Of a stretch of DNA of 64,000 nucleotides, positions 9,549 to 27,947 are shown piece by piece. Position numbers and translations under genes: made by a program. The stretch is from assembly GCA_003416985.1 (NCBI GenBank), contig QVIN01000015.1, positions 55,666-119,665 on the forward strand, given 5' to 3'. Position 1 is the first letter of the stretch. Every line of letters starts with the position of its first letter. This stretch comes from Duganella sp. BJB480. Its GTDB lineage: Bacteria; Pseudomonadota; Gammaproteobacteria; Burkholderiales; Burkholderiaceae_D. The notes beneath the pieces are model-generated. The model saw only the letters and a list, made by a program, of their open reading frames with translations, made no database searches and had not been told where the DNA came from.

Positions 9549-10527
9549 CGACTGCTCCAGTGGGCGCTTGCGGGCGGGCGTTGTGCAATACGCCTTGCTT
9601 GTGCGCGGGGATGTGGGCCGACGGGTCTTGCGCCGGATCGAACACGTAATGCTGGAAGATTGCGCCCCACGCGGCGCGCAGTTCCGGCGGCTGGTGCTTC
9701 ATGCTTTGCAGCGTGGCGACCAGCGCCTCGAAGGTGGTGCCGGCGTCCGGCGCCGGCTGCTCGTTCTTCCACCAGTAGTTGACCATCATGTTCAGGATGC
9801 CGTTCGATTGCACGTGGTGCCACCACAGCGGCGGGATGAACAGCGCGTCGCCCGGCAGCAGGTCGGCCACCAGCGCGGCCTCCATCGCCTGCCGGAAGCG
9901 CGGGTGGCGCGCGTGGTCCGGCGCGCGGAAGTCGACCATGCTGATGGGCGTGGGCGTCGGCGCGAAATCCAGCGGGCCGATATACAGGTTGCCGACCTGT
10001 TCGGGCGGGAACAGCGTGAAGCGCCGTTCGCCGCTGACCACGCAGGCCAGGTTGTACGATTCGTCGAAGTGCGCCGGCGTGGTGATGGTGTTGCCCAGCC
10101 AGAGGCGCGGCCGCACCGACGGCGGCAGCGCCGGCGCCACGTTGTGCGCCTCGAATCCCGGCAGGCATTCTTCGACCAGCGCGCTCTGGATCGCCACCGA
10201 CGGCGGCGCCTCGAACTGCGAGTAGCGCGCCAGCTGCTCGATCACCTTCGATACCGGCACCTTGTTGCGCACGAAGTTGAATCCCTCCATGTCCGGCTTG
10301 TAGAACAGCCGCCCGCGCTGGTCCGGTGGCGTCATCACAGCGTCCACTTCATGGCCGCTGTCGAACTCCATCAGGTATTGGCACAGCGCTTCCGGCGCCT
10401 GCCGCGCCTTGTGCACGGCCGGCCAGTTGCGCACGAAGCCGCGCAGGATGGCGGGCCGGTAGCCGCAGGCGATCTCGCTGTAAAAGCGCGCCGGGTCGAG
10501 GTCCAGGTATTCGGTGATCTGGTTCAT
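9535..10527 (-). CDS. Cupin-like / JmjC-type 2-oxoglutarate oxygenase domain protein
   Basis: This 330-residue protein has the Cupin_8/JmjC layout. An iron-binding H-x-D appears in TTPAHFDESYNL, the RFTLFPPEQVGNLY strand follows, and the distal histidine lies in GDALFIPPLWWHHV. Members hydroxylate proteins or small molecules with Fe(II) and 2-oxoglutarate. It begins PARFYSEIACGYRPAILRGF. It starts downstream of the TonB receptor terminator and is coupled to the serine hydrolase. Such cupins often neighbour TonB receptors in saccharolytic bacteria, but the substrate is unknown. Confidence 0.85.
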   Translation of the reverse strand: MNQITEYLDLDPARFYSEIACGYRPAILRGFVRNWPAVHKARQAPEALCQYLMEFDSGHEVDAVMTPPDQRGRLFYKPDMEGFNFVRNKVPVSKVIEQLARYSQFEAPPSVAIQSALVEECLPGFEAHNVAPALPPSVRPRLWLGNTITTPAHFDESYNLACVVSGERRFTLFPPEQVGNLYIGPLDFAPTPTPISMVDFRAPDHARHPRFRQAMEAALVADLLPGDALFIPPLWWHHVQSNGILNMMVNYWWKNEQPAPDAGTTFEALVATLQSMKHQPPELRAAWGAIFQHYVFDPAQDPSAHIPAHKQGVLHNARPQAPTGAVDDPE

Positions 10528-13379: not shown

Positions 13380-13479
13380 GTACCCTCCCGTTGATGAAGG
13401 CTCCGCCGAGCCAACTGATTGTTGATGTGTAATTCTTTTTTACTTCTTACCAAACCACCTACAAAACCAATCCAACGCC

Positions 13480-13513
13480 AATATACCCGTCTTTTAATAC
13501 CAGATCACTACCA
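13480..13513 (-). promoter_or_regulatory. TonB receptor promoter with direct-repeat operator
   Basis: On the minus strand, TGGTAGT-GATC-TGGTATT occupies 13513-13496, two 7-base repeats separated by 4. A TATATT -10 hexamer lies at 13485-13480, so the repeat covers the -35 region, as expected for a repressor. The same TGGTATT-N4-TGGTATT arrangement recurs at 13707 and 27740. The whole 13380-13762 gap is AT-rich and holds no gene that I can support. Confidence 0.65.
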
Positions 13514-13706
13514 CTTTAAAATTCTTTTTTGTTATGTTGTATGCGGCATACACAACGTGGCCTGGAAGGCAATCGAATACCGGCCATGTGGTGGTATGGC
13601 GGCCGCTTGTGTCAGGCTGCAACAGCCTGAAAGCCAGCATCCATGCGGGTTTTCGGCGGATGGTGCAAAATATTCGCGGTGCGCGCCGCGTGCGGTGGCG
13701 GCACGC

Positions 13707-13724
13707 TGGTCTTTTTTTGGTATT
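13707..13724 (+). promoter_or_regulatory. Direct-repeat operator upstream of GntR regulator and chitinase
   Basis: TGGTCTT-TTTT-TGGTATT matches the two-repeat, 4-base-spaced operator seen at the TonB receptor and at the nag operon. It lies 38 bases before the regulator start at 13763. Binding by one of the two GntR/UTRA proteins is inferred. Confidence 0.6.
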
Positions 13725-13762
13725 ATCGATTGACAACGACAAAACAGGATGGCCACTTCGTC

Positions 13763-14518
13763 ATGAGCAGCGATTCCACCACCGCACTGGTACACATCCG
13801 GGCGCACCTCAGTGAGACCAGTAACCTGCCGCTGTACCAGCGCCTGCAGCGGGCGCTGCGCTCGGCCATCGAGCAGCATCTGCTCAAGCCGGAGGACGCG
13901 CTGCCGGCCGAGCGCCAGCTGGCGGCCGACCTGGCGATCTCGCGCATCACCGTGCGCAAGGCCATCGACGGGCTGGTGGGCGAGGGCGTGCTGGTGCGCC
14001 GGCCCGGCTCGGGCAACTTCATCAACACCCGCATCGAGAAGAACTTCGCCAAGCTGACCTCGTTCTCCGAGGACATGCGGGCGCGCGGGCGCACGCCGCG
14101 CAGCGTGTGGCTCAAGCGCTCCGAGGGCACGGTCACGCCGGACGAGGCGATGCGGCTGCGGCTCAGCCCCGGCGCGGCGGTGTACCGCTTCCACCGCATG
14201 CGCTACGCCGACGACGTGCCGATGTGCCTGGAGTACGCGACCATCGTGGCGTCCTGCCTGCCGTCGCTGGAGGCGGTCGACGTGTCGATGTACGACGCGC
14301 TGGAGAAGGCCGGCAACCGCCCGGTGCGCGCGCTGCAGCGGCTGTCCGCGTTGCTGCTCAACGCCGAGCAGGCCGCGCTGCTGCAGGCGAAGGAGGGCGA
14401 TGCCGGCCTGGCGGTCGAGCGCCTGGGCTTTCTGCGCGACGGTCGCGCGGTGGAGTTCTGCCGCTCCTACTTCCGCGGCGACATGTACGACTTCGTGGCG
14501 GAACTGAACGCCGGCTAA
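13763..14518 (+). CDS. GntR/UTRA family transcriptional regulator of chitin utilisation
   Basis: This 251-residue regulator has a winged helix at about residues 25-90 (PLYQRLQRALRSAIEQHLLK, AERQLAADLAISRITVRKAI, GSGNFINTRIE) and a UTRA ligand domain ending EFCRSYFRGDMYDFVAEL. UTRA domains of this group sense amino-sugar phosphates. The frame is open from 13643, but the ATG at 13763 gives the normal N-terminus. The chitinase starts 14 bases downstream, so the two are likely co-transcribed. A TGGTATT operator lies 38 bases upstream. It is a paralogue of the regulator at 26057-26791. Confidence 0.9.
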   Translation: MSSDSTTALVHIRAHLSETSNLPLYQRLQRALRSAIEQHLLKPEDALPAERQLAADLAISRITVRKAIDGLVGEGVLVRRPGSGNFINTRIEKNFAKLTSFSEDMRARGRTPRSVWLKRSEGTVTPDEAMRLRLSPGAAVYRFHRMRYADDVPMCLEYATIVASCLPSLEAVDVSMYDALEKAGNRPVRALQRLSALLLNAEQAALLQAKEGDAGLAVERLGFLRDGRAVEFCRSYFRGDMYDFVAELNAG

Positions 14519-14532
14519 CCTTGCAAGGAACT

Positions 14533-15837
14533 ATGAACTCCCATCGCCTCAAACGCTGGACCCTGGCGGCCGCGCTGGCCGCCGCGCTGCCGGCCACCGC
14601 CACCGCCGGCGGCGCGCCGGAAATCGTCGGCTACTACCCCGGCTGGAAGTCGGACGCCTTCCCCGTCACCGCCGCCAACGTCGACGCCGGCCGGCTGACG
14701 ATGGCCTTGTACGCCTTCCTCGACGTCTGCTGGAACGGCAAGCATGGCAATCCCGAACCCTCGGTCAACTACGTGGCGCCATGCCAGGACGCGGCCGGCG
14801 ACGCGCAGTCGGCCAACGGCGCGCTGGTGTTCCGCGACGCCGCCAAGGACGGCGCCAACCTGCGCGCACTGGTGGCGATGAAGCGGCAGCATCCGCAATT
14901 CAAGGTGGTGGTGTCGGTCGGCGGGTGGGACTGGTCGAACCAGTTCTCCAACGTGGCCGACAGCGCCGGGGCGCGCGCCAACTTCGTCGCCTCGTCGGTG
15001 AAGCTGATGCGGCGCTTCGGCCTGGACGGCGTCGACATCGACTGGGAATACCCGACCGAGGCCGGCGTGCCTTGCGTGGCGGGCGCCGTGTGCGCGCGGC
15101 CGGCCGACAAGCGCAACTTCATCGCGCTGGCGCGCGAACTGCGCGCGGCCTTCGACGAGGCGGGGCGGCAGGACCGCAAGCACTACAGCATCACCATCGC
15201 CGCCGGCGGCAACGCCAACTACGTCAACGACGGCGCGGCGGGCGGCGGCTGGATCGCGGAGCTGGCGCAAAGCCTGGACTGGATCAACATCATGGCCTAC
15301 GACTTCCACATGCCGTGGGAGAAGCGCAGCGGCCACCACGCCGCGCTGTTCGCCGACCCCGCCGACCCGGCGACGGCCGACGGCCTTTACGCGGCGGCGT
15401 CGGTGCGGCGCTACCTGCGGGCGGGCGTGGCGGCGGACAAGCTGGTGATGGGCGTGCCGTTTTACGGCTACGGATGGAAGGGCTGCGCGCCCGGCGCGGG
15501 CGGCGACGGCCAGTACCAGGACTGCGACGGCGGTGCCGGCGGCGGCGTGGACGGCGGCAACGCGTACGGCTACGGCCTGCTGCTCAAGCTGGGATACCTG
15601 ACGCCGGGCCACGAGGGCGGGCAGGGCTTCACGCGCCACTGGAACGGCGCGGCCAAGGCGCCGTACCTGTACCGCGCGGCGGACGGCGTCTGGATCACGT
15701 ACGAGGATCCGGCCTCGCTCGGGGAGAAGGCCCGCCACGTCAGGGCGCAGGGCCTGCGCGGCGCGATGTTCTGGGAGCTGAGCGCCGACGGCGGCCAGCG
15801 GATGCTGCGCGCCCTGTCGGTGGCGATGCGCAAATAA
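14533..15837 (+). CDS. Secreted chitinase, glycoside hydrolase family 18
   Basis: This 434-residue protein has a signal peptide (about residues 1-26, ending ATATAGG) followed by a GH18 barrel starting IVGYYPGWKSDAFPV. The catalytic motif DGVDIDWEYP spans residues 165-174, with the acid/base E172. The SVGGWDWSNQF motif near residue 128 and MAYDFHMPW (strand 6) are intact. It hydrolyses chitin to oligomers outside the cytoplasm by substrate-assisted catalysis. No chitin-binding module is present. It lies directly behind the GntR gene and ends at a bidirectional terminator. Confidence 0.94.
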   Translation: MNSHRLKRWTLAAALAAALPATATAGGAPEIVGYYPGWKSDAFPVTAANVDAGRLTMALYAFLDVCWNGKHGNPEPSVNYVAPCQDAAGDAQSANGALVFRDAAKDGANLRALVAMKRQHPQFKVVVSVGGWDWSNQFSNVADSAGARANFVASSVKLMRRFGLDGVDIDWEYPTEAGVPCVAGAVCARPADKRNFIALARELRAAFDEAGRQDRKHYSITIAAGGNANYVNDGAAGGGWIAELAQSLDWINIMAYDFHMPWEKRSGHHAALFADPADPATADGLYAAASVRRYLRAGVAADKLVMGVPFYGYGWKGCAPGAGGDGQYQDCDGGAGGGVDGGNAYGYGLLLKLGYLTPGHEGGQGFTRHWNGAAKAPYLYRAADGVWITYEDPASLGEKARHVRAQGLRGAMFWELSADGGQRMLRALSVAMRK

Positions 15838-15863
15838 AAAAAACCGGCGCGAGGCCGGTTTTT
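15836..15863. terminator. Bidirectional terminator between chitinase and TPR gene
   Basis: AAACCGGC at 15841-15848 pairs with GCCGGTTT at 15854-15861 around GCGAG, with A-runs on the left and T-runs on the right. It serves both convergent genes. Confidence 0.8.
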
Positions 15864-15869
15864 GCTGGA

Positions 15870-17171
15870 TTACTTGGCTTCCGGCTGTGGCGCCGGCGGG
15901 TTCTGGAACATGATCCAGTAGCGCGCCAGGTCGCCGCGGCCGTCGTTGCCGGTGATGGTCTCGAGCAGCTTGACCGATTCGTCCTTCTTGCCGGCGATGG
16001 CCAGCGCGTAGGCCAGGCGCAGCTTGGCGTCCTCGGGATTCTTGGCCACGCCCTTGGCGACGCCCTGCTTCATCAACTCGATGCCCTTGTCCTTCTGGCC
16101 CAGGGTCACGTAGTTGTAGCCCAGGTTGACCAGGCCGACGCCGTCCTTGGACTTCTGCGCGGACTCGATGCCCTTGTCGATGTTCTTGGCATCGTCGGCG
16201 GCGCCCTTGTTGGCGCTGTCGCGGATCTTCTGCAGCGCGGCCTTGTTCTTGTCGGCCGGGATGGCGCCCGGGTAGCCCTTGTCCATGGCGATCTTGGCCT
16301 CGGTGAAGAAGCCGCCCAGCACCGCCAGCTCGGCGATTTCGGCGTAGTCTTCGGGCTCCATCTTGGACGGCGCGGCCAGCGCCTTCAGGCGGGCGATGTC
16401 CAGGTCCAGGCGCGGCGCGTAGCTCTTCTTGCCGCGGGTGCGGTTGAGCAGGTCGAACCAGTATTCCTCGGTCGCATAGTAGCGGGTCAGCTCCTCGACC
16501 GCCTGCAGATACAGCTCGGTGTCCTTGGTCTTGATGCCGACGTTGCCCAGCAGGTTCAGCTCATCCTTGGGCGGGGCGACGCCGGTTTTCTTGGCCGCCT
16601 CGATGTCCTTCAGCGCCTCGGCCTTGGCGGTGGCGAAGTCGTTCTTGAAGAAGTAGGAGCGCACGATGAACTGGCGCTGCTTGAGCGTGTCGCCCGACTC
16701 GGTGCCGTAGCGGGTGAACCAGGCGATGGCCTGGTCGTAGTCCTTGATGTTGCTGTAGTAGATGCCGCCGACGGCGTCGATGAAGCGCAGCTTGTCCTCC
16801 GGCTTGAGGCGGCCGGAGTCGATCATCTCGCCCAGCGCCTTGACGGTGGCCGGATAGTCGCCGGTGGCCTGGCCCAGCTGCACGCGCATCTGGTTCAGCA
16901 CGAAGGCCTCGTACGGCGTCACGTTCGGCATGGCGGCAGAGGTGTCGATGCGATTCTTGAATTCGGTGTAGTTCTTGGCCGCCAGCAGTTCCTTGGTCTG
17001 GGCCGGATCGATCAGCTTGTAGATCTCGGGACGCACGGCATCCTTCGGCGGCTCGGCCGGTTTGGCGGCTTCGGCGGCGTAGACGGGCGACATGCCCAAC
17101 ACGGCCGGTACGGCGTTCAGGCCGATGGCGGCCAGGATCAGGCTAATACGAGCGAGACGAATGTGGGACAT
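15870..17171 (-). CDS. Exported tetratricopeptide-repeat protein
   Basis: This 433-residue protein has a signal peptide ([16 protein letters not shown], cleavage near VYAAE). It is almost entirely helical repeats. TPR-like units are visible at [20 protein letters not shown] and near [20 protein letters not shown]. It is probably periplasmic. No enzymatic motif is seen. AAGGA precedes the ATG. It lies at the 3' end of the GlcNAc cluster, but the broken ABC ATPase frame runs 29 bases into its start. Whether it belongs functionally to that cluster is not known. Confidence 0.8.
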
Positions 17172-18102
17172 GAATTATCCTTCTATCAGACAAATTAGAG
17201 GGCCGGCGGGTAAGCCATGCCATCGCGACAGTGTAAACCCGCGTATTGTTACATAAAACGGGGCGAAACCACGAATTCAAGCGTGTAGCGGGGCGCGCGC
17301 CAGCGCCCGGCCTTCGGCGTCGAACAGCAGGCAGCACGCTGGCGCGGTCCGCCGACGCGGCGATGATTTCACCGGCGATGAAGTTCATCCTCGGCGTGCC
17401 GAGAAAGCCCGCCACGAACAGGTTGGCCGGATGGTTGTACAGTTCATGCGGCGTGCCGACCTGCTCGATGCGGCCGGCGTTGAACACGGCGATGCGCTGG
17501 CCCAGGGTCATCGCCTCGACCTGGTCGTGGGTGACGTAGATCATGGTGGTCTTCAGTTCCTGGTGCAGGCGGCTGATCTCCACCCGCATCTGCACGCGCA
17601 GGCTGGCGTCCAGGTTGGAGAGCGGCTCGTCGAACAGGAACACCTCCGGCGTGCGTACGATGGCGCGGCCGATGGCGACGCGCTGGCGCTGGCCGCCGGA
17701 CAGCTCCTTCGGCCGGCGCTTGAGCAGCGGCGCGATCTGCAGGATGGCCGCCGCGCGCTCCACCGCCGCCGCCACCTCGGCCGGCTTGCGGCCGGCCAGC
17801 TTGAGCGCGAAGGCCATGTTCTCGTACACCGTCATGTGCGGATACAGCGCGTAGGACTGGAACACCATGGCCAGCTTGCGCTGCGCCGGCGCGACGTCGT
17901 TGGCCAGCGCGCCGCCGATGTGCAGCGTGCCGCCGCCGATGTCCTCCAGACCCGCGATCATGCGCAGCAGCGTGGACTTGCCGCAGCCGGACGGGCCGAC
18001 GAAGACCATGAATTCGCCGTCGGCGATATCGAGGTCGACGCCGTGGATGACCGGCGTCTTGTCGTAGCTCTTGACGATTTGTTTGAGGCTGACGCTGGCC
18101 AT
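17143..18102 (-). CDS. Sugar ABC transporter ATP-binding protein with broken C-terminal TOBE region
   Basis: The first 250 or so residues are a complete MalK/UgpC-type ATPase: [39 protein letters not shown] and the [17 protein letters not shown] end of the nucleotide domain. The usual 100-residue TOBE domains are missing. After ASADRASVL the frame runs into nonsense ([14 protein letters not shown]) and overlaps the TPR gene. In another frame the typical family C-terminus CLLFDAEGR lies immediately next to the break, so the gene appears to have lost an internal segment not divisible by three. The ATPase core may still work with the permeases at 20926-22661; TOBE-dependent regulation would be lost. 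Confidence 0.8.
17277..17333 (-). other. Out-of-frame remnant of the ATPase C-terminus
   Basis: Shifted by one base relative to the ATPase gene, this stretch reads [18 protein letters not shown] and then a stop. The CxLFD(A/P)xG pattern is how MalK/UgpC-type ATPases normally end. It is evidence that about 80-90 residues of the TOBE region were deleted between about 17340 and 17333. Confidence 0.6.
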
Positions 18103-18106
18103 CCGC

Positions 18107-19411
18107 TCAACCCGCGCGCACGGCTTGCGGCGCCGGCGCTTCCTCGGGCTGCGGGCGCGCGGTCATCGGGATGAGCTGCGACAGCAACGCCACCGGGATC
18201 GCGCACAGCATCACCCACACGAAGAAGTGCTGGTAGCCGAGCGACAGCTGGATGTCGCCGCTGAACAGTTTAAACAGCACAAAGCCCAGCTGCATGATGC
18301 CGGTCGAGAAGGCGTAGTGGGCGGTCTGGTATTTACCCGGCGCGACCACCTGCATCATGTACAAAATCAGGCCGACGAAGCCGAAGCCGTAGCCGAACAT
18401 CTCCACGCTGAGCGCCACGCCGATCACCGACAGCTCGGTGGGCTGGAACACGGACAGCAGGTAGAAGGCGACGTTGGGCAGGTTGACCGCGAGGATCAGC
18501 CACAGGATGGCGCGCTTGAGGCTGAGCCACGAGGTGAAGTAGCCGCCGGCGATGCTGCCCACCACGAAGGCCACGGTGCCGACGGTGCCGTACACGGCGC
18601 CCACTTCGGCGGTGGTCAGCCCCAGGCCGCCGAGGTGGCGCGCCTCGCGCAGGAACAAGGGGCCGATCGACTGCACCTGCGCCTCGCCGGCGCGGAACAG
18701 GATGATGAACACGATCGACACCCAGATGCCGGGCTTCTTGAAGAATTCGACGATCACCTCCCACAGCGTGCGGGCGATGGCGCCGGCGTTGGTGTCGGCG
18801 GTGACGGCGTTCTTCGCGGTCGGTAGCGCCCAGCTGTTGTACAGGCCCAGCGCCACCATGATGGCGGCCAGGATGCAGAAGCTGATGGTCCATGCCGGCA
18901 CCACGCCCAGCGTCTTCTCGAAGTGGCCGGCCAAGAGCAGCAGGCCGCCGGTGGTGAAGAACTTGCCGGCGTTGAAGAAGGTGCCGGTCCAGCCGGCGTA
19001 CTTGGCCTGGCCTTTTTCATCGAGGCTGGCGATGTACAAGCCGTCGCACGAGATGTCGTGCGTGGCCGACGAGATGCCCACCAGCGCGAGCATCGCCATG
19101 CAGGCCGCGAACCAGAACGGCGCGTGCAGCGCCAGCGCCACGCCGCCCAGGCACAAGCCGCCGAAGATCTGGAAGCCGACCACCACCAGCTTCTTGCTGC
19201 TGGCCAGTTCCAGGAAGGGGCTCCACAGCGGCTTGAACACCCAGGCGAAGCCGATCAAGCCGGTCCAGTGATTGAGCTCGTCGTTGGGCACGCCCATGCT
19301 CTTCAACATCTGGTTGGCGACGATCGCCACCGCGAAGAACGGCAGGCCCTGCGCCAGGTACAGGCTGGGTACCCAGAACCTCGGGTCGCGTATTTTTTTG
19401 TTGTCCATCAT
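18107..19411 (-). CDS. MFS transporter, AmpG-like, probable (N-acetyl)glucosamine-saccharide permease
   Basis: This 434-residue inner-membrane protein has about 12 hydrophobic segments and the N-terminus [20 protein letters not shown] typical of AmpG-type permeases, which import GlcNAc-anhydro-muropeptides or related saccharides. [11 protein letters not shown] lies in the central part. The second codon (19408) is an alternative ATG. It lies 24 bases after the GH3 gene and 4 bases before the ATPase gene in the nag cluster, so chitobiose or a cell-wall disaccharide is the likely substrate. Confidence 0.82.
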
Positions 19412-19435
19412 TTTGCCTCCTCCCCGATTGAATTG

Positions 19436-20929
19436 TTATGCGAAGCCGGGAACCGGCGCGCAGCCGGTGGCTTCCAGCTCGCCGCACAGCCAGCTGTTGA
19501 CCGCGTCCAGCGCCGGCTGGGCGAAGCCGTAGGTCATCAGCGACGGCGACTGGATGTCCAGCGCCTGGTACGGATTCCACAGCGCCAGGTGCAGGTCCGG
19601 CTTCCACGTCGCGCGCGCGTGCTCGCCGTAGCGCAGGCGCGAGGTCGAGGCCAGGATGGTGAAGCGGCCGTCCTGCGGCAGCGCGTTCCAGTCGAAGGTG
19701 TCGGCGTCGGCGAAGGTGGTCAGTTCGACGTCGTACAGGCGGCGCAGCGAGGCCGCCACGCCCTCGGCCGGCACGCCGGCCTCGGACACGCCGTCGCTGA
19801 CCACGTCCTGGCGCACCACCAAGCGCACCTTCGCGCCCGGTGCCGGACGCACCGGCGCGCGGTGGGCGGTCAGGCTGCGGCGCCAGCCCTCGGCCATCAG
19901 TTCGCGGTCCGCCGCGTCCTCCTTGTAGGAGCGCGGCTTGCACGGATAGGCCAGCGCCAGCGCGGACAGGCGCGCCAGGCGCTGCTCGATCTCCGCCATC
20001 GGCACTTCGTTCGAGGCGATGGCGGCGGCGATGGCGTCCAGCGTTTCGTTCTGCGTTTCGGTGGTGCCGAGCGCCATCACCATGTCGGCGCCGGCGGCCA
20101 GCGCGCGCACGGCGGCGTTGCCCACGCCGTAGCGGCCGGCGATGGCGTGCATGTCCATGCCGTCGGTGATGACGATGCCCTTGTACTGCCACTCGTCGCG
20201 CAGAAGGCCGGTGAGGATGCGGCGCGACATGGTGGCCGGATAGTCAGGGTCCAGCGTCGGATAGACGATGTGCGCGGTCATCATCGCCGGCGCCGCGCCG
20301 GAGGCGATGCGGAACGGCGCCAGCTCCATGCGGTCCAGTTCCTCGACCGGCTTGTTCACGGTCGGCAGGTCGCGGTGCGAATCGACGTTGGTGTCGCCGT
20401 GGCCGGGGAAGTGCTTGACGCAGCAGGCCACGCCTTCCGCGTGGCTGCCGGCCATCCACGCCATCGCCAGCTCGGCGGCGCGTAGCGGCTCGGCGCCGAA
20501 GGAGCGCTCGGCGATCACCGGGTTGTGCGGGTTGTTGTTCAGGTCCAGCACCGGCGCGAAGTTCCAGTTGAAGCCCAGCGCCTTGACCGCGCGCGCCACG
20601 GCGGCGCCGGTGCGGCGGGCCAGGTCGGTGTCGTCGGCGGCGCCCAGGCCCATGGCGGCCGGCGGCGCCGGCACCCAGGTCGAGCGCACCACGGCGCCGC
20701 CTTCCTGGTCGATGGCGATCAGCGATTCGGGGCCCATCACGGCGCGCAGGTCGGCGGTCAGCTTGGCCAGCTGTTCGGAGTCGGTCATGTTCCCGCGGAA
20801 CAGGCAGACGGCGCGGATGCCGTTGGCCCGGATGAAGTCCGCGGTGGCGGCATCGAGCACGGTGCCGGGGAAGCGGATCATGATCAGTTGTCCGGCGAGT
20901 TTTCTGAGGTCGTTTTGGGTTGGGGTCAT
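19436..20929 (-). CDS. Glycoside hydrolase family 3 beta-N-acetylhexosaminidase
   Basis: This 497-residue protein has no signal peptide and so acts in the cytoplasm. The NagZ-type motif KHFPGHGDT lies at residues 172-180 with DSH just after it, giving the Asp-His acid/base loop of this subfamily. The nucleophile is D256 in ITDGMDM. A C-terminal extension of about 150 residues goes beyond NagZ. It should release GlcNAc from imported chitobiose or muropeptides for NagK and NagA. Its ATG overlaps the stop of the upstream permease (ATGA). Confidence 0.9.
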   Translation of the reverse strand: MTPTQNDLRKLAGQLIMIRFPGTVLDAATADFIRANGIRAVCLFRGNMTDSEQLAKLTADLRAVMGPESLIAIDQEGGAVVRSTWVPAPPAAMGLGAADDTDLARRTGAAVARAVKALGFNWNFAPVLDLNNNPHNPVIAERSFGAEPLRAAELAMAWMAGSHAEGVACCVKHFPGHGDTNVDSHRDLPTVNKPVEELDRMELAPFRIASGAAPAMMTAHIVYPTLDPDYPATMSRRILTGLLRDEWQYKGIVITDGMDMHAIAGRYGVGNAAVRALAAGADMVMALGTTETQNETLDAIAAAIASNEVPMAEIEQRLARLSALALAYPCKPRSYKEDAADRELMAEGWRRSLTAHRAPVRPAPGAKVRLVVRQDVVSDGVSEAGVPAEGVAASLRRLYDVELTTFADADTFDWNALPQDGRFTILASTSRLRYGEHARATWKPDLHLALWNPYQALDIQSPSLMTYGFAQPALDAVNSWLCGELEATGCAPVPGFA

Positions 20930-21732
20930 TTCACAGCTCCGTCCATGCCACGCATGAAGAATCGTTGGGTAAATAGGAAGGCTGCCAGCGTGGGCAGGAT
21001 GGTCAAGATGGTGCCGGCGGCGATCACGCGCGTGCTGCTGCCGAAGGTGCCGCGCAAATACAGCACGCCCACCGACAGCGGGAATTCGTCCGGCTTGCTC
21101 ATCACGATGGATGGCCAAATGTATTCGTTCCAGGCCTCGACCGCCGTCAGGATGCCGACCGTGGCCAGCCACGGGGCGATCAGCGGCAGCATGATCCTGC
21201 TGAAGATGGTCCACTCGGAGGCGCCGTCGACGCGGGCGGCGTCGATCAGGTCCTGCGGCACCTCCTCGAAGGCCTGCTTGAGCAGCAGGATGGCGACCGC
21301 CGTCACCACGTTGGGCAGGATCACGCCGGTGTAGGTGTCGACCAGGCTCAGTTTCGTCACCGTGATGAAGTTGACCAGGAAGTTCACTTCCGACGGCAGC
21401 ACCAGCGTGGCGAGGATCAGGCCGAACACCAGCTTGCGGCCCTTGAAGCGCATGCGCGCCAGCGGGTAGGCGGCGGCGGAGCACAGCGCCAGCTTCCAGA
21501 ACACGGTGCCGGCGGCGATGAGGACCGAGTTGCGGAAGAAGGACCAGATCGGGATCGCCTTGAACACTTCGATGAAGTTCTCGAACGACGGCTGCTGCGG
21601 CCAGAAGGTCGGCGGGAAGGCGAAGATGTTCCCCTCGGTGGAGATGGCCGTCACTAGCGTCCACCAGAACGGGAACACGCAGACGACCGCGATGGCGCAC
21701 AGCAGCAGGTAGTGGGCGGCGGTCTTCATCAT
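20926..21732 (-). CDS. Carbohydrate ABC transporter permease, MalG type
   Basis: This 268-residue inner-membrane protein has six hydrophobic segments and the EAA loop EEVPQDLIDAARVDGASEWTIF. It starts MMKTAAHYLLLCAIAVVCVF. The frame is open far upstream through the neighbour, but the ATG at 21732 overlaps the stop of the first permease as ATGA; the next ATG at 21729 is an alternative. With the permease upstream and the binding protein it forms a CUT1-type importer for GlcNAc or chito-oligosaccharides. Confidence 0.92.
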   Translation of the reverse strand: MMKTAAHYLLLCAIAVVCVFPFWWTLVTAISTEGNIFAFPPTFWPQQPSFENFIEVFKAIPIWSFFRNSVLIAAGTVFWKLALCSAAAYPLARMRFKGRKLVFGLILATLVLPSEVNFLVNFITVTKLSLVDTYTGVILPNVVTAVAILLLKQAFEEVPQDLIDAARVDGASEWTIFSRIMLPLIAPWLATVGILTAVEAWNEYIWPSIVMSKPDEFPLSVGVLYLRGTFGSSTRVIAAGTILTILPTLAAFLFTQRFFMRGMDGAVK

Positions 21733-22661
21733 CGGTGCTTGGGTTTTATGTAGCGCAGGCAGAGCAGGGCGATGCCGATGCAGAAGATGGACATGACGAA
21801 GCTGGCAGCCAATGCGCGCGGCAGCTTGAGGTGCTTGAGGCCCTGGTCGTAGGCGTAGTACAAGCCGGTGAAGGTGGAGTTCATCGGACCGCCCTGGGTC
21901 AGCACGTCCACTTCCTGGTAGGCCTTGAGCGCGGCCAGCACCGACAGGATGGAGCAGACCATGATGGTGGGGCGCAGCATCGGTACGGTGATTTGCCAGA
22001 AACGCTGCCAGCGGTTGGCGCCGTCGAGGATGGCCGCTTCCTGCATGTCGGCGGGGACGGCCTGCAGCGCGGCCAGGTACATCACCATGTACCAGCCAAG
22101 GCCGCGCCACAGTGTGACGAACATGATGGCGAACAGCGCCAGGCTGTCGTTGGAGAGCCAGCCGACCGGCGCGCCGACCAGCCGCATCGTCATCAGCACG
22201 TAATTGAGCGCGCCCTGTTCGTGGAACATGAAGCCCCACATGATGCCGACCACCGAGACCGTGGTCACCACCGGCACGTAGAAGGCGGCGCGGAAGTAGC
22301 GGATGCCGGTCAGCTGGTTGTTGACCAGCACCGCCAGGCCCAGCGCGCCGATCTGCACGAAGGGCACCATCAGCAGGAAGACCAGCGAGTTTTTCAGGCC
22401 GGTGACGAACATCTCGTTGTCGAAGATGTAGCGGAAGTTGTCCAGGCCGACCCAGTGCGTTTCGCGTATCAGGCTGTAGTCGGTGAAGGCCAGGAAGGAG
22501 CCGAAGGCCACCGGCCAGAAGGAGAACACGGCCAGCAGCGCCAGCGCGGGGGCGAGGAACAGCCAGGCGGTGAGGTTCGCGCGGCGCGCGGACGCGGGCT
22601 TGGCGGCGGGCGTCGTGGCGAGCGCGTTGGCCTGGGCCGGGGCGGGGTGGGCGTCGCGCAT
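21729..22661 (-). CDS. Carbohydrate ABC transporter permease, MalF type
   Basis: This 310-residue membrane protein has an N-terminal cytoplasmic tail rich in Ala/Pro and six membrane spans. Its EAA loop is ALQAVPADMQEAAILDGANR, and KAYQEVDVLTQGGPM is characteristic of CUT1 permeases. It starts one base after the end of the binding-protein gene and overlaps the next permease. Confidence 0.92.
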   Translation of the reverse strand: MRDAHPAPAQANALATTPAAKPASARRANLTAWLFLAPALALLAVFSFWPVAFGSFLAFTDYSLIRETHWVGLDNFRYIFDNEMFVTGLKNSLVFLLMVPFVQIGALGLAVLVNNQLTGIRYFRAAFYVPVVTTVSVVGIMWGFMFHEQGALNYVLMTMRLVGAPVGWLSNDSLALFAIMFVTLWRGLGWYMVMYLAALQAVPADMQEAAILDGANRWQRFWQITVPMLRPTIMVCSILSVLAALKAYQEVDVLTQGGPMNSTFTGLYYAYDQGLKHLKLPRALAASFVMSIFCIGIALLCLRYIKPKHR

Positions 22662-22662
22662 G

Positions 22663-23928
22663 TCAGTGGCTCCGCTGCGCGGCGAGTTTCTTGTTCCAGA
22701 TCGCCACCGCCTGGTCCAGCGCCTGCTTCACGTCCTGCTTGCCGGTGACGCCGGCTTCGACGGCCTTCACCAGGTAGCGGCGCAGTTCATCGTAGTCGGT
22801 GATGCCGGCCACGTACAGCGTGTGCGAGTGCGGCATCGACACGGCGCCCGCCGATACGGCCTTCTCGGCCGCGCCGGCGCCTGGCGGCACAGTAGTGAAG
22901 AAGGGATCATTGGCCGCCTGCGCCATCGCCGGGTACACGCTGGCCTGCTTGGCGAAGGCCAGCTGGTTGGCGTCGTTGGTGAGATAACGGGCGAACTTGC
23001 CGACCGCCGGCAGCAGTTTGGCGTCGACGTTCTTCGGCACGGCGAAGTGGATCAACCAGCCGCCGTCGGCGATGCCGGTGGGGCCGAGCGGCGCGGGGGC
23101 GACGTCGGTGATGGCGTAGATGTCTTTGGCGTCGGTCTCGATGCGCTTGACGGCCGTCGGTGGCGCCAGCAGCATGCCGAGGCGGCTGCCCTTGTAGGCG
23201 TCAATCGCGGCGGGGAAGTTATCCTCGGCGAACAGCGCGTCCTTCAGCAGGCCGCCGGCCTTGTAGGTCTCGGCCAGCTTGGCGATTAGCGCGATGTGGG
23301 CGGGCGAGTTGAACACAGCCTTGCCGTCGCGGATCACGGGCAGGCCTTGCTGCATCATCAGGCCGTCGATCTTGGACAGCGCGGGACACAGGCCGGCCTT
23401 GCCGGTGCGGGCGGCGATCTGGCGTGCGAACAGCAGTTGCTCGTCCAGGTCGCGCGGCGCGTGGGGGATGCCGGCGGCCTTGAAGATTTGCGTGTTGTAG
23501 GCGATGACGGCGACGTTGCTGTACATCGGGAAGCCGTAGGTCTTGCCGCCGAAGCGCAGGTCCTCCAGCGTGCTGGGAAGGTAGCGCGGGCGGGCGTCGC
23601 CGAGCAGCGCGTCGACCGGCGCGAGCAGGCCGTCGCGGGCGAATTCGTCGGCCCAGGGCACGTTCAGGTTGACCAGCGCGGGCGGGGTGCCGGCGACGAT
23701 GCGCGTCACCAGCTTGGTCTGGATCACGTCCCACGGGAAGTCGACCCACTCCACTTTCACGCCCGGATTGCCGGCTTCGTAGTTTTTCACCAGCGTCTCA
23801 AAGTAGGGAGTGAACTTGGGCTTCATGCTGAAGGTCCAGAATTCGATTTTCTCGGGCGCCGCCGCGAGGGCGGCGCCGCCCAGCAAGGCCTGCACCATCA
23901 ATGCCGTCAGCAATATGCGATTCTTCAT
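22663..23928 (-). CDS. Extracellular sugar-binding protein of the ABC importer
   Basis: This 421-residue family 1 solute-binding protein has a signal peptide (TALMVQALLGGAALAAA) and the mature start EKIEFWTFSMKPKF. WVDFPWDVIQTKLVTRIVAG and YGFPMYSNVAVIAYNTQIF are hallmark blocks of CUT1 binding proteins. No lipobox cysteine is seen, so it is periplasmic and soluble. Its position between the deaminase and the permeases points to an amino-sugar ligand, most likely GlcNAc or chitobiose. Confidence 0.9.
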   Translation of the reverse strand: MKNRILLTALMVQALLGGAALAAAPEKIEFWTFSMKPKFTPYFETLVKNYEAGNPGVKVEWVDFPWDVIQTKLVTRIVAGTPPALVNLNVPWADEFARDGLLAPVDALLGDARPRYLPSTLEDLRFGGKTYGFPMYSNVAVIAYNTQIFKAAGIPHAPRDLDEQLLFARQIAARTGKAGLCPALSKIDGLMMQQGLPVIRDGKAVFNSPAHIALIAKLAETYKAGGLLKDALFAEDNFPAAIDAYKGSRLGMLLAPPTAVKRIETDAKDIYAITDVAPAPLGPTGIADGGWLIHFAVPKNVDAKLLPAVGKFARYLTNDANQLAFAKQASVYPAMAQAANDPFFTTVPPGAGAAEKAVSAGAVSMPHSHTLYVAGITDYDELRRYLVKAVEAGVTGKQDVKQALDQAVAIWNKKLAAQRSH

Positions 23929-23943
23929 TGATGGTGCCGCTGC

Positions 23944-24966
23944 TTAGTTGGTCTTGGTGACTTTGCTCAGGTGGCGCGGCGCGTCCGGGTCCATGCCGCG
24001 CGCGGCCGACAGCTGGGCCGCCATCACGTAGAAGGCCTGGATCGCCACGATCGGGTCCAGGTCCGGCGTGGCGGCGACCGGCAACGTCAGGTCGCGTTCG
24101 GCCACGTCGGCCGGCGCGGCCAGCAGCACGCGCGCGCCACGGCCGCGCATCTCGGACGCCAGCTGCAGCAGGCTCGTCTGCGTCGGGCCACGGGTGGCGA
24201 AGATCACCAGCGGGTAGCCTTCCTCGATCAGCGCCATCGGGCCGTGCTTGATCTCCGCGCCGCTGAAGGCTTCCGCCTGCAGCGCCGAGGTCTCCTTGAA
24301 CTTCAGCGACGCCTCCAGCGCCACCGGGAAGCTGATGCCGCGTCCCACCACCATGATGTTGCGGGCCGGCGCCAGCACTTCGATGGCCGAGGTCCAGTCC
24401 TCCTTGGTGGCCGCGCGCAGCGAATCGGGCAGGGCCTCCAGGCCGGCCAGCAGCTCCGGATCGTTCTGCCACGCGGCCACCAGGCGCGCGCCGGCCACCA
24501 TGCTGGTGATGAAGCTCTTGGTGGCGGCCACGCTCTGCTCTTTGCCGGCGCGCAGCGGGATCGCCCATTCGGCGGCATGCGCCAGCGGCGAGTCGATGTC
24601 GTTGACCAGCGCGATGGTGGTGGCGCCGCCGTCGCGGAAGTACTTGATCGGCTCGACCACGTCAGGGCTCTGGCCCGACTGCGAGATCGAGATCGCCAAG
24701 GTGTCGCGGGTGATCAGCGGCGACTTGTTCAGGGTGACCAGCGACATCGGCAGCGACGCCACCACGCGGCCCAGGCGCGCCATGATCAGGTAGGCCGCGT
24801 AGGCGCAGGCGTGGTCCGAGCTGCCGCGCGCGATGGTCAGCGCGGTCGAGAAGGACGTGCTCCTCAATTTGCGGCCCAGCTCCGCGTAACGGTCTCCATC
24901 GCTGGCCAGCTGCAGGGCTACGCAATCAGCGGCGGACAGGGCTTCTTTCAACATCATTGAGGTCAC
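23944..24966 (-). CDS. nagB-II: SIS-domain glucosamine-6-phosphate deaminase (NagB-II type)
   Basis: This 340-residue protein has two SIS domains and no glutaminase domain, like the isomerase half of GlmS. ARGSSDHACAYAAYLI and SISQSGQSPDVVEPI form the first sugar-phosphate site, and GRGISFPVALEASLKFKETS with EIKHGPMALIEEG forms the second. In GlcNAc clusters lacking classical NagB, this protein converts GlcN-6-P to fructose-6-P and ammonia. It overlaps the end of nagA by four bases. Deaminase rather than amidotransferase activity follows from the missing glutaminase part and the context. Confidence 0.9.
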   Translation of the reverse strand: MTSMMLKEALSAADCVALQLASDGDRYAELGRKLRSTSFSTALTIARGSSDHACAYAAYLIMARLGRVVASLPMSLVTLNKSPLITRDTLAISISQSGQSPDVVEPIKYFRDGGATTIALVNDIDSPLAHAAEWAIPLRAGKEQSVAATKSFITSMVAGARLVAAWQNDPELLAGLEALPDSLRAATKEDWTSAIEVLAPARNIMVVGRGISFPVALEASLKFKETSALQAEAFSGAEIKHGPMALIEEGYPLVIFATRGPTQTSLLQLASEMRGRGARVLLAAPADVAERDLTLPVAATPDLDPIVAIQAFYVMAAQLSAARGMDPDAPRHLSKVTKTN

Positions 24967-26060
24967 AACAATTCTCCTTCGATATAGACGGCTTTGAGAT
25001 TCAGGTCACGGTCGAGCACCACGAAGTCGGCGTAGGCGCCGGGGGCCAGGCGGCCCCGCTCTTGCAGGCCGAGATAATCGGCCGCATACGTTGAGACCCG
25101 TGCCGAGGCATCCGCCAGATCGAGGCCGAGTCCGACCAGGTTGCGCAGCGCCTGGTCCATGGTGAGGGTGCTGCCGGCCAGCGTGCCGTCGGGCAGGCGC
25201 ACGCCGCCCATGCACTTCATGACGGTGTGGCGGCCCAGCATGTACTCGCCGTCCGGCATGCCGGTGGCGGCGGTCGAATCGGTCACGCAGTACAGCTGCG
25301 GGATGCAGCGCAGCGCGGTGCGGATGGCGCCGGGGTGCACGTGCAGCAGGTCGGGAATGAATTCGGCGTACTGCGCGTGGGCCAGCGCGGCGCCGACCAT
25401 GCCGGGCTCGCGGTGGTGCAGGCCGGTCATGGCGTTGAACAGGTGGGTGAAGCCGTGCGCGCCGTGCGCCAGCGCGGCCACGCCGTCCTCGTAGCTGCCG
25501 AGGGTGTGGCCGATCTGCACGCGCATGCCGGCGTCGGACAGTTCGCGCACCAGTTCCAGGTGGCCGCCGATTTCCGGCGCCACGGTGATCAGTTTGATCG
25601 GTGCGATCGCCTCCAGGCGCTCGACGTCGGCCAGCTTGGCGGTGCGCGCGAACGGCGGCTGCGCCCCCAGCTTGCCGGAGTTGATGAACGGTCCTTCCAG
25701 ATGCACGCCCAGCACGCGCGCCTCGCCCTTGCCGCGTTGGGCGGCGGCCTTGCCGATGCCCTGCAGCGCGAGGTCGATGTCCTCCGGCGGCGCGGTCATC
25801 GTGGTGGCCAGCATGCTGGTGGTGCCGTGCTTCGCGTGGATGGCGGCGATGGTGCGGACCGCGTCGCCGCCCTCCATCACGTCCTTGCCGCCGCCGCCGT
25901 GCACGTGCAGGTCGATAAAGCCAGGCAGGATATAGGCTTCTTCGTTTTTCGACGGGTCGGTGCTGCTGCCGTGGATGGCGGCGATGCGGTCGCTGAAGGT
26001 GATCTCGCCGCGGACCCAGCCCGCCGACGTCAGGATATTGCCTTGGATTGCACTGCTCAT
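24963..26060 (-). CDS. nagA: N-acetylglucosamine-6-phosphate deacetylase
   Basis: This 365-residue amidohydrolase has metal and catalytic motifs DLHVHGGGG, VHLEGPFI, GHTLGSYEDG, THLFNAMTGLHHREPG and CVTDSTAATGMPDG (catalytic Asp). It removes the acetyl group from GlcNAc-6-P in the cytoplasm. Length and motifs are normal. It overlaps the regulator upstream and the deaminase downstream by four bases each, showing tight translational coupling. Confidence 0.95.
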   Translation of the reverse strand: MSSAIQGNILTSAGWVRGEITFSDRIAAIHGSSTDPSKNEEAYILPGFIDLHVHGGGGKDVMEGGDAVRTIAAIHAKHGTTSMLATTMTAPPEDIDLALQGIGKAAAQRGKGEARVLGVHLEGPFINSGKLGAQPPFARTAKLADVERLEAIAPIKLITVAPEIGGHLELVRELSDAGMRVQIGHTLGSYEDGVAALAHGAHGFTHLFNAMTGLHHREPGMVGAALAHAQYAEFIPDLLHVHPGAIRTALRCIPQLYCVTDSTAATGMPDGEYMLGRHTVMKCMGGVRLPDGTLAGSTLTMDQALRNLVGLGLDLADASARVSTYAADYLGLQERGRLAPGAYADFVVLDRDLNLKAVYIEGELL

Positions 26061-26791
26061 CTGCGCGACTCCGCTACGAATTCATAATAATCACTGCGGC
26101 AATACGAGTGGGTCAGTTCCACCGCCGCGCCGTTGTCGAGATAACTGACGCGGGTGATGTGCAGCATGGCGGCACCCGCGGGGATATTGGCCAGGCGCGC
26201 CTGCTCGGCGCTGGCGTTGACGGCGCGGATGTGCTGCAGCGCGCGCATCGGGATGGTGCCGTTGGCTTCCAAATAGCCGTACAGCGAATCGGTGACGCTG
26301 TGCGGGTTCGGCATGTATTGCGCCGGGATGGTGGTGGTCTCGATCGCCATCACCACGTCGTCGGCGGTGCGCAGGCGCTTCAGGCGCGCCACCGGCATGT
26401 TGGGCGACAGGCCGAGCGAGAGCAGCTCCACCGGCGAGGCGATGCCGATGTCGCGCTGCAGCCAGCGCGAGCCGGCCGTGAAGCCGCGCTCGCGCAGCTC
26501 TTCGGAAAAGCTGGTCAGGCGCGACAAGGGCTGCTCCAGCTTGGGCGTGATGTAGGTGCCGGAGCCGCGCTTGCGGGTCAGCATGCCGCGCTCGCACAGC
26601 ATGTCGATCGCCTTGCGGGCGGTCACGCGCGAGATGTGCAGCATGTCCGACAGCACGCGCTCGGACGGCAGGGCCTCGTTGGCGCGCCAGTCGCCGGCGG
26701 CGATCCCGTCGGACAGCTTGTTGGCAAGCTGCATGTAGAGCGGGGTGTCGCTGTCGGCATCGGGCTGGAAATCGCTCAACTGGGCTAGCAC
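26057..26791 (-). CDS. GntR/UTRA family regulator of GlcNAc utilisation
   Basis: This 244-residue regulator has a winged helix (PLYMQLANKLSDGI, SERVLSDMLHISRVTARKAI, RKRGSGTYITPKLEQPLSRL) and a UTRA effector domain ending THSYCRSDYYEFVAESRR. It is related to the NagQ/NagR regulators that respond to GlcNAc-6-P or GlcN-6-P. It sits second in the nag operon, so it is probably autoregulated through the TGGTATT direct repeat at 27740. A paralogue is encoded at 13763. Confidence 0.9.
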   Translation of the reverse strand: MLAQLSDFQPDADSDTPLYMQLANKLSDGIAAGDWRANEALPSERVLSDMLHISRVTARKAIDMLCERGMLTRKRGSGTYITPKLEQPLSRLTSFSEELRERGFTAGSRWLQRDIGIASPVELLSLGLSPNMPVARLKRLRTADDVVMAIETTTIPAQYMPNPHSVTDSLYGYLEANGTIPMRALQHIRAVNASAEQARLANIPAGAAMLHITRVSYLDNGAAVELTHSYCRSDYYEFVAESRR

Positions 26792-26795
26792 GGGC

Positions 26796-27665
26796 TTACT
26801 CCTTCAGGCGTTGTTGGATCAGCCGCAGCGCGCCTGCCGCGGAATCGCCCTGCGGCGTGACGATCCGCTTCAACATCGAGACCGGCAGGTAGGGGCGCAA
26901 CGGCGCCGCCAGTCCGCCGCACAGCGCGATCGGCAGCTGGCCGCCGGCGTCGAGCGCGTTGCCCATCAATTCCACCTGGCGTCCGGCCTCCTGCAGGATG
27001 GCGCGCGCGGTGTCGTTCGACTCGCCGTGCTGCAGCACGATGCGCGCCAGCTGCGCGTATTGCGTCTGCGTGGCCTTGGCCAGCCAGTTCTGCAGCGCGT
27101 CGCGGCCGCCGCCGCAGGCCTGCGCCAGGTCGGCGCTGAAGGCGTTGGCCGGCACGCGGCCGTCGAGCACCTGCTGCACGTGGTTGACGGCGCGCAGGCC
27201 GATCCAGGCGCCGCCGGCCTCGTCGCCGGCCGGGAAGCCCCAGCCGCCGACCTCGACGTGGACACCGTCCATGCGCTTGATCTCGCCGACGCTGCCGGTG
27301 CCCAGCGCGATGATGGCGCCGGGCTGGCCGCGGTGGGCGCCGAGCACGGTGGTATGGCCGTCGGTCTCCAGCGCCACGCGGGCGTAGCCGGGATTGGCCG
27401 CGACGAACTCGGCGGCCCAGGCGCGGTTGTGCACGCCGGCCAGGCCGAGGCCGATGGCGATGGTGTCCTTGGCCGGGAAGTCGATGCAGGCGGCGCGGAA
27501 GGCCATGCCGGCCGCGTCCTCGACCGAGGCCCAGGCGTTGGCGATGCCGTGTATCAGGCCGGACGGGCCGCTGACGCCTTCGGCCAGTTCCATGCCGTCG
27601 ATGCGCGCCAGGCGCACCCTGGTGCCGGTGCCGCCGCCGTCAACGCCGATTAAAAAGTCGATCAT
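26796..27665 (-). CDS. nagK: N-acetylglucosamine kinase, BadF/BcrA ATPase family
   Basis: This 289-residue protein starts MIDFLIGVDGGGTGTRVRLA, the ASKHA phosphate-binding loop of BadF/BadG-type sugar kinases. TDGHTTVLGAHRGQPGAIIALG and GGWGFPAGDEAGGAWIG are typical of GlcNAc kinases. It should phosphorylate GlcNAc before NagA acts, which fits an operon with ABC and MFS importers and no PTS. An in-frame upstream start at 27725 would lie inside the promoter, so 27665 is preferred. First gene of the cluster. Confidence 0.9.
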   Translation of the reverse strand: MIDFLIGVDGGGTGTRVRLARIDGMELAEGVSGPSGLIHGIANAWASVEDAAGMAFRAACIDFPAKDTIAIGLGLAGVHNRAWAAEFVAANPGYARVALETDGHTTVLGAHRGQPGAIIALGTGSVGEIKRMDGVHVEVGGWGFPAGDEAGGAWIGLRAVNHVQQVLDGRVPANAFSADLAQACGGGRDALQNWLAKATQTQYAQLARIVLQHGESNDTARAILQEAGRQVELMGNALDAGGQLPIALCGGLAAPLRPYLPVSMLKRIVTPQGDSAAGALRLIQQRLKE

Positions 27666-27708
27666 GATTATCCGAGAATGCTGTGCCGGGATGCCCCGTG
27701 TTGAGGGC

Positions 27709-27757
27709 ACTATATGGGCAGGCAAACCAGCTTGTCAACAGGTATTTAACTGGTATT
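27709..27757 (-). promoter_or_regulatory. Promoter and operator of the nag operon
   Basis: On the minus strand, TTGACA (27738-27733) and TATAGT (27714-27709) form a near-consensus promoter with an 18-base spacer. Right upstream, the plus strand reads AGGTATT-TAAC-TGGTATT at 27740-27757, the same 7-4-7 direct repeat seen at the TonB receptor and regulator/chitinase promoters. Control by the GntR/UTRA proteins is inferred. The remaining gap up to 27947 is AT-rich and without other clear sites. Confidence 0.7.
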
Positions 27758-27947
27758 AAAAAATATTGAAGTGGACTTGCGTTGTCGACTTGGAATGTAT
27801 TTGTAAGTACTTGTTTTAATTGGTAATTGCTGGTTTTTGCGGCAACTGGTCCGGTGTCGCATTTGCATGCCACTTTGGTCTGGTTTTGGTAGGGAAGGAG
27901 GCCGAGGGAGTACACTATGGCTTTAGTGCACTTTTGAAGGCAAGATG

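Follow-up and report, generated by a model that had tools for sequence, protein, structure and literature searches.

Which regulator acts on which operator, when one and the same repeat recurs at separate promoters next to two regulators of a single family? The question is raised by a stretch of 64,000 nucleotides from Duganella sp. BJB480 (GenBank assembly GCA_003416985.1, contig QVIN01000015.1, positions 55,666 to 119,665; hereafter the window), part of a genome of 7.27 Mb. The direct repeat TGGTATT-N4-TGGTATT lies in the window at 13496-13513 (minus strand) before a TonB-dependent receptor gene, at 13707-13724 (plus strand) before the regulator gene gntR1 and a chitinase-family gene, and at 27740-27757 (plus strand) before a nag operon for N-acetylglucosamine (GlcNAc), which encodes the second regulator, GntR2. 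A preliminary description had read these boxes as operators of a chitin and GlcNAc regulon. Their coordinates and strands are all borne out, as is the 11-bp period of the half-sites, and the regulon assignment is supported, strongly so by conservation across relatives. We consider it quite probable that NagQ-type GntR/HutC repressors sensing an amino-sugar 6-phosphate use the boxes as operators, and the question of which regulator belongs to which box probably has no one-to-one answer.

Frequency and spacing of the repeat

Each of the three boxes departs from the motif at one base, which always lies in the first half-site; there is no perfect copy among them. With up to three mismatches the window holds six sites against 0.62 expected, a number that none of 100 shuffled sequences attained. 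The whole genome has five sites with at most one mismatch, three of them inside the window, and none of the reversed pattern. A set of 80 named related loci (0.80 Mb, overlapping the family genomes treated below) contains 88 sites with up to two mismatches and five of the reversed pattern. When direct pairs of half-sites in these loci are sorted by spacer (0-40 bp), a spacer of 4 accounts for 88 pairs and the runner-up for 22. The highest counts of inverted pairs, 26 and 19, stay far under this peak and are due for the most part to one or two conserved sites next to the nag promoter. Secondary peaks of the scan (direct 5, convergent 16, divergent 21) were also traced mainly to places near the nag promoter and were discarded. 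At G009:C531:4090-4129 three boxes overlap to give four half-sites in a row with an 11-bp period.

Co-occurrence of operator and regulators

Both window regulators contain PF00392 and PF07702 and belong to the GntR/HutC (UTRA) group. The preliminary description had counted two such paralogues; both are there in the window, while the genome has four in total. GntR3 is 74% identical to GntR1 and has its own divergent receptor gene, and the gene for GntR4 (contig C31) shares an operon with a SIS/murQ-type gene. In a tree, 73 sequences fall into three well-supported clades, GntR1/3 (21 rows), GntR2 (32) and GntR4 (20). Homologues outside the tree were classed by best match, and three of them (L324, L325 and L326, from G091 and G045) are not close to any clade.

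Regulators (E <= 1e-30, up to 18 candidates scored per genome) and relatives of the GlcNAc kinase NagK (E <= 1e-40) were sought in 145 genomes of the family. Two models, R1 for the receptor promoter and R2 for the nag operator and promoter, were searched with Infernal under stricter filters. A GntR1 fragment with an internal stop in G072 was excluded from the counts. Regulators of this group occur in 53 genomes: 19 with both GntR1 and GntR2, three that have GntR1 and lack GntR2, 19 that have GntR2 and lack GntR1, and 12 with GntR4 only. R2 matches precisely these 53 genomes and none of the other 92. In 51 of the 53 an R2 match is situated within 0-700 bp upstream of the NagK match, opposite to it in strand; 50 of these matches include the box. 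By class, the box is present upstream of nagK in 19/19, 3/3, 17/19 and 11/12 genomes, respectively; the GntR4-only genomes in which regulator and operon are unlinked are the cleaner cases.

NagK relatives are found in 69 genomes, of which 16 lack a regulator, and none of these 16 has an R2 match; five of the 16 NagK matches are merely 44-46% identical and may be non-orthologous. Six of the 16 loci were taken and the nagK promoter was examined in five, the contig of G120 stopping within nagK. G040, a genome of the same genus in which no regulator was found, retains TTGACA-N18-TATAGT and lacks the operator, which argues for repression. The promoters in G060 and G027 read TTGACA-N17-TACAGT/TAAAGT, again with no box, and those in G134 and G096 show no clear consensus. 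Both G040 and G120 (L364, L365), the latter also of the same genus, have kept nagK, nagA, the GH3 gene and a TPR gene, and a regulator of this group was not found in either.

The nag promoter

The preliminary description had the nag box abutting a near-consensus -35 element; the box does abut it, with a gap of 1 bp, and the element is exactly TTGACA. As the operon is transcribed from the minus strand, the box points against transcription. The arrangement is conserved in alignment A2 of 20 distinct sequences: the box begins 1 bp upstream of the -35 element, TTGACA is exact in 19, and 16 rows have TATAGT as the -10 element, the other four TAAAGT or TACAGT. The spacer between the two elements is 17 bp in 17 rows and 18 bp in three, including the window.

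Among the named loci, 56 encode a protein at least 70% identical to GntR2, and 54 of these have an upstream box with up to two mismatches, the other two a box with three. The box lies about 0.95-1.35 kb upstream in 53 of the 54 and 106 bp upstream in one, and five of the 54 boxes start with C instead of A. Below 70% identity (24 loci), ten of the Roseateles/Mitsuaria type carry a box about 1 kb upstream; of the remaining 14, two have it directly past the gene and 12 have none with up to two mismatches. The closest named relatives of GntR2, at up to 99% identity, come from Rugamonas and Duganella, which we take to be Oxalobacteraceae. A class-wide search of 369 genomes gave, apart from G000, four with a GntR2 relative; in two of the four a perfect box directly precedes its gene.

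Upstream of the nag box, at 27860-27879 beside a divergent small open reading frame (ORF), the window has an ATGCCA[CA]TTT element kept in many relatives. In six relatives (one present twice) there is a weak box at a distance of exactly 103 bp from the nag box, a place where the window has none with up to three mismatches. An auxiliary site in this region is possible.

The receptor promoter

At the receptor the preliminary description had placed a single box over the -35 region. Box 1 does occupy that region, with no recognisable -35 element present, and a conserved second box (box 2, 13463-13480) had been missed. Alignment A1 contains the 15 distinct receptor-promoter sequences out of 19 loci. 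Box 2 has three mismatches to the motif, yet its TGGC, A47 and TGGTT are invariant in A1. Between the boxes lies TATATT, the putative -10 element of the promoter, and TATATTGG is invariant there in A1. Across 20 loci (the 19 and G056) the distance between the boxes is 32 bp in 15, 33 bp in three and 34 bp in two. In a genome of another family (G892, L371:1408-1458) two boxes with the window receptor's spacing of 33 bp lie upstream of a 53%-identical regulator gene.

R1 matches all 19 family genomes with both GntR1 and GntR2 and none of the 126 others. In the BJB480 genome its matches are confined to the receptors of the window and of GntR3, as those of R2 are to the nag promoter; order-wide (399 genomes) it is strong only in G000 and G056, with weaker matches in ten others. 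The GntR3-receptor pair (G000:C2, L054:7876-11567) has the drifted boxes TGGTACT-AAAT-TGGTACT and TGGTAGC-GCTT-TGGTATC, and a second TonB receptor gene comes next on the same strand. Genomes with GntR2 and no GntR1 have a TonB receptor gene near the nag genes that bears a nag-type box (nine boxes in eight genomes examined). Eight of the nine are followed by one base and then TTGACA, G065 being the exception, and four have an extra ATACCA half-site 21-22 bp upstream. The stretch examined in G130, also of this class, has no box with up to two mismatches.

Assignment of regulators to boxes

The nag box is retained in three genomes with GntR1 and no GntR2 (G018, G125, G098), and in G070, G003 and G011 with GntR4 alone, whose gene lies on a different contig or at a distance of millions of bases. 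G139 and G056, which belong to one genus, show the reverse of the window order: gntR1 stands beside the nag genes and gntR2 within a few kilobases of a receptor gene with an R1-type promoter, and the box types have not changed. The receptor of G056 shares only 40% identity with that of the window. G113, from this genus too, keeps the usual linkage. Since the nag operator is kept with GntR1, GntR2 or GntR4, and the linkage is swapped in two genomes, the repressors look interchangeable, and gene content favours a shared operator word over fixed pairs of regulator and box.

The regulators also agree in most of their contact residues. In NagR, Arg38 and Arg48 read the two G of the half-site and a wing glycine enters the minor groove (PMC4333415). 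The equivalents of Arg38, Arg48 and Gly69 are invariant in all 73 regulators of the tree, across all clades, so that recognition of the half-site itself probably follows the usual mode and the difference lies only in how the half-sites are arranged. The equivalents of Arg133, Arg135, Glu145, Ser165 and Tyr167, which contact the phosphosugar, are likewise invariant in 73/73.

Under a strict division, GntR1 would act only on the receptor and gntR1 boxes and GntR2 only on the nag box, the two being insulated by small differences in the first half-site and the spacer. Such a division is possible, but we doubt it. Boxes of the receptor type (TGGTAGT....CTGGTATT) and of the nag type (AGGTATTTAA[CG]TGGTATT) do differ fairly consistently, each regulator adjoins its putative target in this genome, none of 123 genomes has R1 without GntR1, and the boxes of GntR3 have drifted further, to TGGTACT and TGGTAGC/TGGTATC. 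The persistence of the nag box in all three genomes that have GntR1 but lack GntR2, and in 11 of the 12 with GntR4 only, the swapped linkage with unaltered box types, and the DNA-contact residues common to every clade all speak against it.

Tentatively, the double-box receptor promoter might be a two-input or cooperative array, with GntR1 and GntR2 bound head-to-tail three turns apart, and the word a common currency of three repressor clades that swap with one another.

Further sites in the genome

Up to two mismatches, the genome has 22 sites, six of them at chitin, nag or regulator genes: three in the window, one at gntR3 and two upstream of a chitinase with GH18 and CBM5/12 domains outside the window. 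The regulon is thus small. The genome has four GH18 genes (PF00704, E <= 1e-10). Among 14 orthologues of the GH18-CBM5/12 chitinase (68-87% identity), one of its two boxes (each with two mismatches), TGGTAGTCAAGTGGTTTT, is exact in seven and one base off in one; five remoter homologues (47-48%) have no box. Of two further sites with one mismatch (C11, L004 and L005), one lies before a FlxA-like gene and the other overlaps an ORF for a solute-binding protein at its 5' end. No box with up to three mismatches was found in the 19.5-kb stretch around gntR4; in some relatives a box stands directly past gntR4, in G126 before murQ.

Proposed mode of action

From the boxes and their promoter context, binding and repression may be pictured as follows. 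In the absence of GlcNAc-6-P or GlcN-6-P, the repressors would occupy TGGTATT-N4-TGGTATT, with one helical turn between the half-sites, and would exclude RNA polymerase at the nag promoter (box against the -35 element), at the receptor promoter (boxes flanking the -10 element) and at the gntR1-chitinase promoter (box over the extended -10 element). An inducer produced by NagK and NagA would free the repressors, and import, chitin cleavage and catabolism would then turn on jointly. GntR1 and GntR2 would use a common operator word, and the sequence of a box would not fix which of them acts there in the strain.

That the regulators activate instead appears very unlikely. The nag box directly precedes the -35 element, where a bound protein could contact RNA polymerase, as do eight of the nine receptor boxes in genomes with GntR2 and no GntR1. 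Against activation, the nag -35 element is already consensus, G040, G060 and G027 have the promoter with neither regulator nor box, the receptor and gntR1 boxes overlie core promoter positions, and NagR and DasR are repressors (PMC4333415, PMC4918961).

It is very unlikely that the repeats are promoter elements only (extended -10, -35 context, a T-run after a hairpin) and no operators. The thought is suggested by the gntR1 box, the weakest of the three, whose spacer slips in relatives and whose second half doubles as an extended -10 element (TGGTATTAT); GGTAT[TC]AT is retained in 19 of 22 gntR1 loci, and the box of the GH18-CBM5/12 chitinase includes TTGACT on the gene strand. A terminator-like GC hairpin (13688-13706) also precedes the T-run of the gntR1 box. 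Its stem is not kept in the upstream sequences of relatives compared by eye, for which reason the terminator reading was dropped. The nag box, moreover, lies outside the -35 and -10 elements, and G040 has this promoter with neither box nor regulator. Chance matches, to which the mismatch in every box and the unrelated look of 16 of the 22 weaker genome sites might point, are practically negligible in view of the shuffles, the reversed-pattern controls and the conservation in relatives.

Several observations weigh against the reading of the boxes as repressor operators used interchangeably. The gntR1 box with a spacer of 4 is complete in just ten of the 22 loci; the same expression finds a spacer of 3 in one and of 5 in another, and in the remaining ten the first half is degenerate or, at L043 and L044, absent. 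Tyr228 of NagR, a sugar contact, is conserved in none of the 73 regulators; at this position GntR1 carries Phe and GntR2 in most cases Cys, and their effectors may therefore differ. The confinement of R1 to genomes with both regulators fits full interchange less well. In G130 only the promoter part of R2 matches at nagK, with no box, and other R2 matches lie elsewhere; G014 has R2 matches on the receptor side and none at its NagK match, and the broken contigs of G091 do not show a box upstream of nagK. Of the 22 genome sites, 16 show no link to chitin, nag or regulator genes (flanking ORFs were inspected for all 16, and Pfam was run on ten ORFs at seven loci, the chitinase locus included). Six of the 14 chitinase orthologues lack the box, two having a three-mismatch form, one an unlike three-mismatch site and three none. 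The 53 regulator-bearing family genomes have 185 box sites (mean 3.5; reversed control 27), and the regulator-less ones have 110 (mean 1.2; control 30), an excess that is smaller but present there too. Both models were built from loci of these genomes, which makes matches there partly circular; the family genomes are related and hence not independent, and the linkage of regulator and operon in many of them makes the co-occurrence partly co-inheritance.

Gene content of the window

The gntR1 and GH18 genes diverge from the TonB receptor gene (Table 1). Judging by spacing and strand, the minus-strand genes from nagK to the ABC transporter ATPase would form a single operon. A 433-aa protein with weak TPR matches is encoded at 15870-17171 and adjoins the nag genes in many annotated relatives. 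Cupin_8 proteins follow both the boxed GH18-CBM5/12 chitinase (L106:439-1455) and the boxed TonB receptor.

Table 1. Genes, operators and promoter elements of the window
Feature	Position	Strand	Remarks
PF00144 beta-lactamase-fold hydrolase	8535..9548	-	3' of receptor
Cupin_8 protein	9535..10527	-	3' of receptor, same strand
TonB-dependent receptor	10611..13379	-	TIGR01782, TonB-Xanth-Caul type
Receptor operator box 2, TGGCGTT-GGAT-TGGTTTT	13463..13480	-	33 bp from box 1, near expected transcription start
Putative receptor -10, TATATT	13480..13485	-	Between boxes, final base common to box 2; invariant TATATTGG in A1
Receptor operator box 1, TGGTAGT-GATC-TGGTATT	13496..13513	-	Matched in 19 loci; alignment A1
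gntR1 operator, TGGTCTT-TTTT-TGGTATT	13707..13724	+	Second half plus AT (13718-13726) = extended -10 TGGTATTAT
GntR1, GntR/UTRA regulator	13763..14518	+	45% identical to GntR2
GH18 chitinase-family enzyme	14533..15837	+	14 bp past gntR1
ABC transporter ATPase	17143..18102	-	
AmpG-like MFS permease	18107..19411	-	
GH3 beta-N-acetylhexosaminidase-type enzyme	19436..20929	-	Start inferred via translation
ABC sugar transporter	20926..23928	-	Solute-binding protein 22663-23928; permeases 21729-22661 and about 20926-21720
NagB-II-type GlcN-6-P deaminase	23944..24966	-	SIS domains; top NCBIfam match under cut-off
NagA, GlcNAc-6-P deacetylase	24963..26060	-	TIGR00221 above cut-off
GntR2, GntR/UTRA regulator	26057..26791	-	nag operon gene 2
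NagK-type GlcNAc kinase	26796..27665	-	nag operon gene 1; NCBIfam NagK_SO3507 177 bits, under its cut-off of 370
nag -10, TATAGT	27709..27714	-	18 bp from -35
nag -35, TTGACA	27733..27738	-	Exact consensus
nag operator, AGGTATT-TAAC-TGGTATT	27740..27757	+	Alignment A2; model R2

Relation to known regulons

The operator type is already known. NagQ is a GntR/HutC repressor of GlcNAc genes that acts on TGGTATT direct repeats (Yang et al. 2006, as cited in PMC4494728; PMC5343134), which agrees with the resemblance noted in the preliminary description. It controls nagA, nagB, GlcNAc transport and often chitin genes in alpha-, beta- and some gammaproteobacteria (PMC4494728, PMC5343134). The regulon proposed here would resemble that of NagQ in its GntR/HutC regulators, its TGGTATT direct repeats, and the nagA, nagB and GlcNAc uptake genes behind the box at 27740. 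It differs in that the word seems to be common to three regulator clades (four genes in this strain's genome), in a receptor promoter with two boxes 32-34 bp apart, and in a set of putative targets to which a TonB receptor, an ABC transporter and two GH18 enzymes belong. For two Xanthomonas species, PMC5343134 assigns TonB receptors and the kinase to NagR, not NagQ.

The best solved relatives in one sequence search are YvoA and DasR (best E about 1e-58). NagR/YvoA of Bacillus and DasR of Streptomyces, which acts on dre-sites, belong to the same family, and the residues contacting DNA and most of those contacting the phosphosugar are kept. NagR/YvoA was solved on the palindrome GTGGTCTAGACCAC, and effector binding shifts its DNA-binding domains widely (PMC4333415). 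Unlike the palindromic operator of NagR and DasR, the boxes here have no conserved inverted partner within them. A precedent for the reading of direct repeats by a GntR-type repressor is NanR of E. coli, a member of the FadR subfamily (PMC4494728) that recognises GGTATA direct repeats with sialic acid as effector; one domain of the dimer sits on the repeat and its partner on adjoining non-consensus DNA, and dimers cooperate (PMC8012715). NanR dimers lie about half a turn apart, whereas the window boxes have a full-turn period, which might be accommodated either by one dimer across the box or by two dimers side by side on one face.

Our literature search, mostly without subscription journals, found no paper on this regulon in Oxalobacteraceae. 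What the analysis suggests beyond the known system is the co-occurrence of R2 with the regulators in family genomes and the persistence of the operator across regulator clades. A fixed operator with apparently exchangeable repressors is a natural case in which the sharing or dividing of one DNA word among paralogues becomes directly testable. A further question is how HutC-family dimers recognise direct repeats whose period is one turn, YvoA having been solved on a palindrome.

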